28,491 bases of DNA, taken from assembly GCA_002399565.1 (NCBI GenBank), contig DHDW01000042.1, positions 53,431 to 81,921 on the forward strand. The letters run 5' to 3'. Positions 13,388 to 16,471 of this stretch are shown here, piece by piece. A program made the position numbers and the translations under genes. A model generated the notes under the pieces. The model was given only the letters and a program-made list of their open reading frames with translations, made no database searches and was not told the origin of the DNA. The stretch is from Bacteroidales bacterium UBA4866. GTDB lineage: Bacteria > Bacteroidota > Bacteroidia > Bacteroidales > P3. Each line of letters begins with the position of its first letter. Position 1 is the first letter of the stretch.

Positions 13388-14662
13388 TTATAGATTAAAT
13401 GCTTTCTTAATTTTATCTACATAATCTAATTTTTCCCAAGTGTAAAACCCTACTGTCTTTTTTGTTTCAACTCCATTTTCAAAAATAGTTACTTCTTCTT
13501 GGTATGGTGTTCTTCCGAAATGACCATATTTGGCTGTTGGTAGGAAGATTGGATTTTTTAATCCAAAGCGATTTACTATTGAATATGGACGTAAGTCAAA
13601 AATTCCATTAATCTTTTCTGCAATAATGCCATCAGTAAGTGTTTGACCATTTTCATCTTTAACCTTTGCAGTTCCATTAGTATTTACATAAAACCCCACT
13701 GGTTTTGCAACTCCAATTGCATAAGCAACTTGAACAAGAACTTCTTCACAAATTCCTGCTGCAACCATATTTTTTGCAATATGTCTTGCTGCATAAGCTG
13801 CACTTCTATCAACTTTTGATGAATCTTTTCCTGAGAAAGCACCACCACCGTGAGCTCCTCTTCCTCCATAGGTATCAACAATAATCTTTCTTCCTGTTAG
13901 GCCTGTATCTCCATGAGGTCCTCCAATTACGAATTTTCCTGTTGGGTTAACATAAAGAATAAAGTCTTTTTTGAAAAGGTCTTGAACATCCTTACGTTCT
14001 TGCTTTGCTATCACTCTTGGGATTAAAATATCTTTAACATCCTTATGAATTTGAGCAAGCATTTTGTCGTCATCATTATCAAAATCATCATGTTGAGTTG
14101 AAACTACAATTGTATTGATTGCAATTGGTTTATTATTGTTATCATACTCAATTGTAACTTGTGATTTGCTATCAGGACGCAAATACTTCATTTCTTTTCC
14201 CTCTCTACGGATTTCTGCAAGTTCTGAAACTAATTGATGAGATAAGATAAGTGATAAAGGCATATAGTCTTCTGTTTCGCTACAAGCATAACCGAACATC
14301 ATTCCTTGATCTCCTGCTCCTTGATCTTCTGGATTTGCTCTTTCAACTCCTTGATTGATGTCGCTTGATTGTTCGTGAATTGCTGAAATAACTCCACATG
14401 AATTACTTTCAAACATATATTCACCTTTGGTGTATCCTATGTTTTTGATAACCCTTCTTGCAACGTCTTGAACGTCTATATATCCATTACATTTTACTTC
14501 ACCGCTCAAAACCACCAAACCAGTTGTTACTAATGTCTCACAAGCAACCTTTGAATTTGGATCTTGGCGAAGAAATTCGTCTAATAGTGCATCTGAAATT
14601 TGATCCGATACTTTGTCTGGGTGACCTTCTGAAACTGATTCAGAAGTAAAAAAATAAGCCAT
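13388..14662 (-). CDS. metK: S-adenosylmethionine synthetase
   Basis: It makes S-adenosylmethionine from methionine and ATP in the cytoplasm. The 424-residue protein carries GHPDKVSDQ (residues 13-21, ATP/Mg binding), GAGDQG (115-120) and the P-loop-like [19 protein letters not shown] region further on, all intact. It is somewhat longer than the E. coli enzyme (384), with small insertions around residues 185-215. The ATG at 14662 is supported by the standard N-terminal [13 protein letters not shown]. The leader of about 125 nt contains a SAM-II-type riboswitch, so the gene is probably repressed by its product. It is a single-gene unit with its own promoter and terminator. Confidence 0.97.
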
Positions 14663-14730
14663 CTTGTTTTGTCTTTAAATTAATTAATTAAACTAACAAA
14701 ATGGGAAATAAGAATTGATGTAATCAAAAA

Positions 14731-14779
14731 TGTTTTAGCATTTTTTTGTGTGGTTGCAATCAATTCAAATCTTTCCACA
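14731..14779 (-). promoter_or_regulatory. SAM-II-type riboswitch in the metK leader
   Basis: On the minus strand the hairpin P1 pairs TGTGG (14775-14779) with CCACA (14749-14753). Its large loop reads AAAGATTTGAATTGATTGCA plus one A. The 3' segment TGCTAAAAC follows after an A-rich linker. Compared from memory with the published SAM-II pseudoknot, the key parts are present: GATTT in loop 1, ATTGCAA just before the P1 3' strand, and GCTAAAA downstream. The P2 pseudoknot then forms between TTGC and GC(T)AA, leaving the U that contacts the SAM sulfur. The -7 box lies just upstream, so the RNA would begin about eight bases before P1. SAM-V has a similar core and cannot be fully excluded. Confidence 0.85.
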
Positions 14780-14790
14780 TTTTATGTCTG

Positions 14791-14798
14791 CAAAAGTA
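14791..14798 (-). promoter_or_regulatory. -7 box of metK
   Basis: The minus strand reads TACTTTTG, an exact TAnnTTTG match. Transcription would start around 14786-14787, just before the riboswitch P1 stem, which supports both calls. Confidence 0.7.
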
Positions 14799-14813
14799 AT
14801 AAAAATAAAAACA

Positions 14814-14848
14814 AATAAGGCACTTATTTATACAAATAAATGCCTTAT
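14814..14848 (-). terminator. Intrinsic terminator of rny
   Basis: The stem ATAAGGCA / TGCCTTAT (14815-14822 with 14841-14848) continues, after one mismatch, as TTATTT / AAATAA with a four-base loop. On the minus strand it is followed by TTTGTTTTTATTTTT. It overlaps the upstream part of the metK promoter. Confidence 0.85.
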
Positions 14849-14917
14849 ATAGTTTATTTTATTATCAATCAATTGCATAATAATTATTTTATTTTACTAT
14901 GCAGAGTGAATTTGATT

Positions 14918-16471
14918 TTATTTTGCGTAGTTCACCGAACGTGTTTCTCTAATTACTGTTACTTTAATCATTCCAGGGAATACCATTTCGGATTGAATTT
15001 GTTTTGATAAGTCCATTGAGATTTGGTTTGCATCTTGGTCTGAAACTTTTTCAGCTGCAACAATAACTCTTAATTCTCTACCTGCTTGAATTGCGTATGT
15101 TTTAATTACTCCTGGATAAGACATTGCAATTTCTTCCAATTTATTCAAACGGTTGATATATGCTTCAACAACTTCTCTTCTTGCTCCTGGACGTGCTCCT
15201 GAAATAGCATCACACACTTGAACTATTGGTGCATAAAGGCTTTCCATTTCAACTTCATCGTGGTGAGATCCAATTGCATTACATATTTCTGGTTTTTCTT
15301 TACAACGTTCTGCAAGCTTCATTCCATGAATTGCATGTGGAAGTTCTGGTTCATTATCTGGCACTTTACCAATATCATGTAGTAGTCCTGCACGTTTTGC
15401 TATCTTTGGATTAAGTCCTAATTCAGATGCCATGGTTGCACATAAATTGGCAACTTCACGAGAGTGTTGTAATAAGTTTTGTCCATAAGAAGAACGATAC
15501 TTCATTTTACCAATCATACGAACAAGCTCATGATGAAGATTTATTATTCCTAAATCAATACAAGTTCTTTTACCTGTTTCAATGATTTCTTGTTCAATTT
15601 GTTTTTTAGTTTTTGAAACGACTTCTTCAATTCTTGCAGGGTGGATACGTCCATCGGTAACAAGTTTGTGAAGTGCCAAACGAGCAATTTCTCTTCTTAC
15701 TGGGTCAAAGCATGAAAGGATAATTGCATCAGGAGAGTCATCAATAATTACTTCAACTCCTGTTAAACTTTCTAATGCACGGATATTTCTTCCTTCTCTT
15801 CCTATAATTCTTCCTTTAATTTCTTCATTCTCTAAGTTAAAAACAGAAACTGTGTTTTCTATTGCGTTTTCTGTTGCTGTTCTTTGGATTGATTCTACAA
15901 CAATTTTCTTAGCTTTTTGATTTGCTGTTAGTTTGGCTTCCTCAATTATCTCCATTATTCTACTTGCAGCATCTGAACGAGCTTCGCCAGTCATTGCTTC
16001 AATTAGTTGTTGCTTTGCATCATCTGCTGACAAACCAGCTATTTGTTCTAATTTTTCAACACTCTTTTGGAAAGTTTTCTCAACTTCTGCTTGACGAGTT
16101 GAAAGAATTTCTAATTGTTTGTTTAAGTTTTCTCTTGCTTGTGTAAATTCGCTGTATTTCTTTTGAAATTCTTCAACTTTAAGTTTTAAATCTTGTTCTC
16201 TTTGTTTTAGTTTATTTTCAACTTGAACAACGCGATTATTACGTTCTTGGACTTGTTTTTCGTGTTCTGATTTAAGTTGAAGAAATTTTTCTTTTGCTTG
16301 AAGGATTTTCTCTTTTTTTACAATTTCTGCTTTATTCTCTGCTTCTAATAATACTTGTGTGGATTTCTTAGTAAGTATTGCTCTAAGTTTGGTTGCAGCT
16401 AACAGTACCCCTAATCCAAAAAAGATTATAGCTACTATTATACAAACGATTACTATTGTTACTGTATTCAT
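14918..16471 (-). CDS. rny: Ribonuclease Y
   Basis: This membrane-anchored endoribonuclease starts mRNA decay. The 517-residue protein has an N-terminal membrane helix (about residues 4-26), a long charged coiled coil (about 35-170), a KH RNA-binding domain with [10 protein letters not shown] (near residue 220) and an HD domain with HSREVANLC and LLHDIGK, then SHHDEVE, which carry the metal ligands. Domain order and length match RNase Y. It lies downstream of zapA and the 6S RNA on the same strand. A near-consensus -7 box, CATTTTTG with one mismatch, lies at 16522-16529 about 50 bases upstream. Its own terminator is at 14814-14848. Confidence 0.96.

Follow-up and report, generated by a model that had tools for sequence, protein, structure and literature searches.

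What kind of RNA element stands before metK in this Bacteroidales genome, and how might it act on a start codon that lies well beyond it? A reading of the letters alone had seen a SAM-II-type riboswitch in the leader, and the words on which it relied, P1 (TGTGG and CCACA), GATTT, ATTGCAA and a downstream GCTAAAA, are all present on the minus strand. When the window, i.e. the whole stretch of 28,491 nucleotides that was analysed, was searched with cmscan, the proposed comparison with Rfam gave a match above threshold to RF01726, the SAM-II long-loop model, with 70.5 bits against a gathering score of 44 (E 5.9e-12) and over model positions 1-60 of 60. The SAM-II type is supported by this score, but the matching model is RF01726 and not RF00521 (SAM_alpha), which reached 13.9 bits at permissive settings, below its cut-off of 36. 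RF01826 (SAM-V), the other model proposed for comparison, did not appear in 14400-15000 at E values up to 10, nor above its cut-off anywhere in the window, a negative result that presumes the presence of RF01826 in the model library. RF01726 and tRNA are the only Rfam families with above-cut-off matches in the window, and the genome as a whole harbours a single RF01726 match above the cut-off, the runner-up scoring 21.8 bits. The leader element is a SAM-II (long-loop) riboswitch aptamer, which presumably binds SAM. Its parts are the following.

14725..14784, minus strand: SAM-II long-loop aptamer (RF01726), full length
14775..14779, minus strand: 5' strand of P1, UGUGG, placed by the RF01726 alignment, with compensatory changes in relatives
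14749..14753, minus strand: 3' strand of P1, CCACA, placed by the RF01726 alignment, with compensatory changes in relatives
14755..14757, minus strand: 5' strand of the pseudoknot, GCA, pairing with UGC at 14740-14738
14738..14740, minus strand: 3' strand of the pseudoknot, UGC, inside AUGCUAAAA, placed by its pairing and by variation in relatives

Compensatory changes in related leaders had been named as a further check, and they were found in both P1 and the pseudoknot. The pair counts come from 71 of the 110 above-cut-off aptamers that were read; these were picked by hand, with near copies and insert-bearing sequences omitted, and amount to 70 distinct rows. In P1, which comprises five pairs in the window, U-A is replaced by A-U in 11 rows and G-C by A-U in one; three of the five pairs change on both sides, two are invariant, and the outermost is unpaired in 34 of the 70 rows. 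As for the pseudoknot, 98.1% of the GCA/UGC cells are paired, and one of the three pairs varies, the A-U pair being replaced by U-A in five, by G-C in one and by G-U in one of the 70 distinct sequences and unpaired in four, while the remaining two never change. The covariation score was 0.185 vs 0.096 in shuffles, none of the 500 shuffles reached it, and slid controls gave at most 0.101; by a weaker measure, the number of further pair types, 31 of 500 shuffles equalled the observed value. A trial third short helix (columns 23-25 with 56-58) was paired in only 75.2% of the cells.

The aptamer precedes a gene of SAM and methionine metabolism, metK, as had been claimed from the letters; the identification rests on TIGR01034 (504.4 bits, cut-off 309.4), and the association holds throughout the relatives. 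Above-cut-off RF01726 matches are present in 81 of 101 genomes (this one and 100 relatives), and metK lies downstream of all 81 loci, every one of which was read. The phylum was also sampled evenly with 395 genomes, of which 57, counting this one, exceed the RF01726 cut-off; metK lies downstream in all 29 further loci read there. The suggestion that SAM-II is unusual outside Alphaproteobacteria did not hold, as Corbino 2005 lists Bacteroides thetaiotaomicron for SAM-II (PMC1273637) and Weinberg 2010 includes 'SAM-II long loops' (RF01726) of Bacteroidetes (PMC2864571). The aptamer of the window is an ordinary member of a family already listed for this phylum in 2010.

Twenty of the 101 genomes have no above-cut-off match. 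Two of them (G019 and G020) have sub-cut-off matches before metK (L088 and L089), and among the remaining 18, metK was found at E 1e-20 in eight and gave no match in ten. In one of those eight (G082), a SAM-I/IV element (RF01725, 54.2 bits, L104:1333-1429) is found before a more distant metK in place of SAM-II; the metK loci of the other seven SAM-II-negative genomes gave no Rfam match up to E 0.5. Two genomes without a strong SAM-II match, G100 and G073, have two metK matches each, and their metK copies (L100, L105 and L106) follow what appears by eye to be the end of ahcY. Weak RF01726 matches were considered as further switches and rejected: nine of the 25 sub-cut-off rows were read, two of these being the matches before metK just mentioned, and the other seven have no metK in the stretch around the match. 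L089 (32.9 bits, sub-threshold) carries a long insert between P1 and the 3' strand of the pseudoknot.

Among the best 80 of 594 named metK loci, SAM-II leaders recognised by pattern belong to Bacteroidales and Flavobacteriales (Bacteroides, Porphyromonas, Flavobacterium, Polaribacter). This regular-expression census, with 41 of the best 80 leaders, is an undercount: when 20 of these loci (19 of the 39 regex-negative ones and one regex-positive) were scanned with cmscan, two more SAM-II leaders emerged and the regex-positive one was confirmed. Matches confirmed by cmscan include those of bins labelled Chitinophaga pinensis (62.1 bits) and Mucilaginibacter (48.1 bits) and that of Patiriisocius (46.9 bits); one metK locus each of Hymenobacter, Pontibacter and Pedobacter gave no SAM-II match with cmscan.

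SAM-I (RF00162) was observed in eight of 41 genomes searched, and four of these eight (G002, G003, G066 and G067) also have SAM-II at metK. In L218 and L220 the first frame behind SAM-I is O-acetylhomoserine sulfhydrylase-like, both being 300-residue fragments that score under the whole-protein cut-off; in L219 it is cysK. These three loci come from G002, G003 and G067. SAM-I and SAM-II appear to divide the labour in such genomes, at variance with a 2007 paper in which no species was reported to have both (PMC2258182). These genomes may be metagenome bins, and hence mixed.

The layout of the locus bears on where the message would begin. On the minus strand the order is rny, a terminator-like hairpin, the box TACTTTTG, the RF01726 match, 62 bases and the metK start at 14662.

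14918-16471: rny (RNase Y), the upstream gene (TIGR03319, 637.3 bits)
14815..14848, minus strand: terminator-like hairpin between rny and the metK promoter box, from a pattern scan
14791..14798, minus strand: TACTTTTG, a match in sequence to the Bacteroidota -7 promoter box (TAnnTTTG)
13388..14662, minus strand: metK, methionine adenosyltransferase (SAM synthetase), 424 aa

The pattern scan found one hairpin in the gap between rny and metK vs a mean of 0.1 in shuffles. Of 83 related leaders, 70 have a TAnnTTTG box no more than 16 nt ahead of the aptamer, with a median gap of 5. Since this box sits at -12 to -5 in a flavobacterial transcriptome (PMC9723704), the transcription start of metK is predicted to lie around 14786, at the aptamer edge. 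No Shine-Dalgarno-like bases were seen by eye before the metK AUG in the window. Leader-peptide frames were considered and set aside: ATGTGG is found at the 5' end of only 31 of 83 leaders, and the AUG in AUGCUAAA, present in 67 of 83, sits within a pseudoknot strand and is replaced elsewhere, e.g. by ACGC or AAGC, so that no conserved upstream frame is seen.

The span first assigned to the riboswitch, 14731-14798, covers most of the aptamer, but it begins in the promoter box and ends six bases short of 14725. It also leaves out the downstream leader (14724-14659), the home of the proposed switching part, which involves three strands.

14759..14785, minus strand: strand A, the transcript 5' end and the 5' half of the aptamer, defined by the A:B duplex and its species-specific complementarity
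14695..14719, minus strand: strand B, anti-aptamer and anti-start, defined by complementarity to A and C
14719-14712 and 14708-14703, minus strand: anti-aptamer parts of strand B, AUCAAUUC and UUUCCC
14704-14695, minus strand: anti-start part of strand B, CCAUUUUGUU, overlapping the anti-aptamer part
14659..14668, minus strand: strand C, AACAAGAUGG, leading up to and across the metK start codon, forming 10 pairs with CCAUUUUGUU

Strand B of the window, AUCAAUUC..UUUCCCAUUUUGUU, begins with a mirror of the aptamer loop GAAUUGAU, continues with a mirror of P1 and ends with the segment that pairs with C. The best A:B duplex in the window has an energy of -19.7 kcal/mol and the B:C duplex one of -12.7 kcal/mol, and the metK AUG is fully paired in the best B:C duplex of 43 of 82 leaders.

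We consider it probable that the metK SAM-II riboswitch provides product feedback, with A:B as the SAM-free ON state and with masking of the AUG by a strand B that SAM has freed as the OFF state. Transcription would start at the aptamer edge. Without SAM, strand A would pair with B and hold it off the start codon, and metK would be translated. With SAM, the aptamer would fold into its pseudoknot and leave B free to pair with C, which would cover the AUG itself and turn metK off. The ON state would rest on the order of folding during transcription. Bacteroidota mRNAs are described as devoid of Shine-Dalgarno sequences, with initiation tuned by the structure around the start (PMC6847099), and covering of the AUG would thus be a plausible translation switch.

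The two complementarities on which this model draws were examined across the related leaders. With simple shuffles, A:B gave a mean z of -1.80 over 39 genera, 21 of which were below -1.64; B:C gave a mean z of -0.70 and was heterogeneous, with only eight of 39 genera below -1.64 (82 of 83 leaders in both cases, L058 being too short). A cross-species test over 39 genera, corrected for composition, asked whether B fits its own aptamer better than the aptamers of other genera. The corrected version was adopted because the shuffled-B control of an uncorrected A:B permutation test (z -7.0), now set aside, was also significant (z -3.3, p 0.002). After correction, own A:B pairs lay 4.8-4.95 kcal/mol below shuffles and cross-species pairs 1.5-2.2 kcal/mol below, a species-specific advantage of 2.6-3.4 kcal/mol (z -5.8 to -7.6, p 0.0005, the floor, in three of three draws; the permutation p values here and below assume independent genera or leaders, which is not quite true). 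For B:C, with C taken from -14 to +10, the corrected values were -1.2 to -1.4 kcal/mol for own pairs and about 0 for cross-species pairs, an advantage of 1.25-1.37 kcal/mol (z -4.1 to -4.3, p 0.0005 in three of three draws, 39 genera). A wider C (-30 to +10) gave a weaker result, p 0.013 vs 0.063 for its shuffled control. Both signals recurred in a second set of 57 leaders, with z -7.0 in both draws for A:B and z -3.2 and -3.3 (p 0.001) for B:C. This set, made of the phylum sample and named genomes and ungrouped by genus, shares no 16-mer of B with the first set, nor do its leaders share one with one another, ten of 67 leaders having been dropped for shared words.

No signal was found in the controls pairing A with the upstream 44 nt (p 0.67), C with the upstream 44 nt (p 0.44), C with shuffled B (p 0.35) or A with C (p 0.68). 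The 3' half of the aptamer against B, intended as a control, was weakly significant (p 0.035; 0.070 and 0.022 in the second set), and the transcript 5' end alone was significant in only one of three draws. The idea that the transcript 5' end mimics the start region was unsupported (longest shared word, p 0.12). In 69 of the 83 leaders (35 genera), the bases of B used by A and by C overlap by 0.47 vs 0.36 in shuffles (p 0.004), and the start region, with the aptamer set aside, is 0.45 unpaired vs 0.50 in shuffles (p 0.003); in the same number of leaders the gain in accessibility from OFF to ON was 0.10 vs 0.07 in shuffles, which is not significant (p 0.063). The A:B and B:C complementarities are species-specific and share strand B, and A:B is the better supported of the two.

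When the window leader was folded at growing lengths, the full A:B duplex was the best fold from -30 to -8, at -19.6 kcal/mol. Once C is transcribed, a combination of the A:B core with B:C (-20.1 to -23.5 kcal/mol) equals or beats it. At lengths of +6 and beyond, the unpaired share of the start region is 0.32-0.41 in the full fold, compared with 0.26-0.36 when the aptamer is set aside; a wide gap is found only at +3 (0.51 in the full fold vs 0.19 without the aptamer). Equilibrium folding of the window leader yields no clean ON state and, given the equal or better energy of the combined fold, such a state would need kinetic trapping or a given order of folding.

The direction of control is suggested by another genus of the same family, g7. 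In all three of its leaders that were scanned, a terminator-like hairpin has B as its 5' arm, and most of the arm bases also pair with A (9/10, 8/9 and 9/12 in L045, L062 and L075, respectively). In these leaders A:B would be an antiterminator and a free B would mean OFF, which supports, short of proof, SAM as the OFF signal for the family. It is possible that they harbour a transcriptional version of the same switch. In the fourth g7 leader, L058, the AUG lies directly behind the aptamer, 59 bases from the aptamer start, and the leader is too short to scan; it leaves no room for strand B, so that another mechanism or a lost platform may be envisaged. We lean towards the view that the metK SAM-II of Bacteroidota operates by a three-strand exchange around B, and that the switch has changed between translational and transcriptional control inside a single bacterial family. 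If so, SAM would decide whether B covers the aptamer or the start-codon region.

The g7 hairpins also raise the question of whether termination controls the window as well, with the B:C hairpin and the U-rich coding start of metK, CUUAUUUUUUUAC, acting as the terminator. Terminator-like hairpins are indeed more frequent than in shuffles (11 of 82 leaders vs 3.1, and two of 57 vs 0.8 in the second set), one of the eight outside g7 (L071, genus g14) shares four of five arm bases with A:B, and in proteobacteria most SAM-II switches are regarded as transcriptional (PMC6061858, PMC2258182). However, the other seven, i.e. seven of the 11 hairpin-bearing leaders, share no arm bases with A:B, and the pattern scan found no terminator-like site between the aptamer and metK in the window, where the B:C stem is A-U-rich with a 26-base loop and the U-tract is coding sequence. 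Control of the window by termination is thus unlikely in our view, and we retain masking of the AUG by strand B as the preferred reading.

We regard as very improbable a direct masking of a nearby ribosome site by the SAM-bound pseudoknot, with B and C as by-products of base composition. Such a mechanism has been proposed for translational metX SAM-II and SAM-V (PMC6061858), and it would suit L058 with its AUG directly behind the aptamer; nevertheless, the AUG of the window is 62 bases away from the aptamer (the median distance from aptamer start to AUG is 136 over 83 leaders), no Shine-Dalgarno-like bases were seen by eye before it, and the A:B and B:C signals persist after the correction for composition. 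Least probable of all is a SAM-binding aptamer whose folding B merely tunes, the start region being regulated otherwise or weakly: the stronger support for A:B and the retention of B:C in both states in the equilibrium folds of the window are in its favour, but B:C proved species-specific in each of the two separate leader sets.

What is new in this study is the evidence on a possible switching half, the aptamer and its host group being already known. Masking of the AUG by strand B offers a testable, sequence-level model of that half, which must operate without a Shine-Dalgarno sequence, and it points to a natural series, with one strand that would mask the start codon in one genus and form a terminator in another. 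Searches of open-access literature showed, among the matches listed, no account of how the SAM-II of Bacteroidota acts on metK or of the downstream strand. The metK context may be given in the Weinberg 2010 supplement. A covariation study of whole riboswitches (PMC13273304) mentions SAM-II once in its main text, where no word starts with Bacteroid.

Among the known systems, the SAM-II long-loop family RF01726 (PMC2864571) is the closest: it agrees with the window in phylum and, along the entire model, in the sequence and structure of the aptamer, with no aptamer difference seen. SAM-II/SAM_alpha, RF00521 (PMC1273637), has the layout of P1 and pseudoknot and the conserved core words in common with the window, but it differs by its score there (13.9 bits vs a cut-off of 36), and its first examples came from upstream of metA in Agrobacterium and mostly from Alphaproteobacteria. 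SAM-V, RF01826 (PMC6061858), shares the H-type pseudoknot and a proposed translational OFF switch; unlike the window, where the AUG lies 62 bases further down and the model has no match, it hides the Shine-Dalgarno sequence right at the pseudoknot. As for the metA switch of Sinorhizobium (PMC9373788), it is a SAM-II riboswitch that is translational and has a distant start codon, as we propose here for metK.
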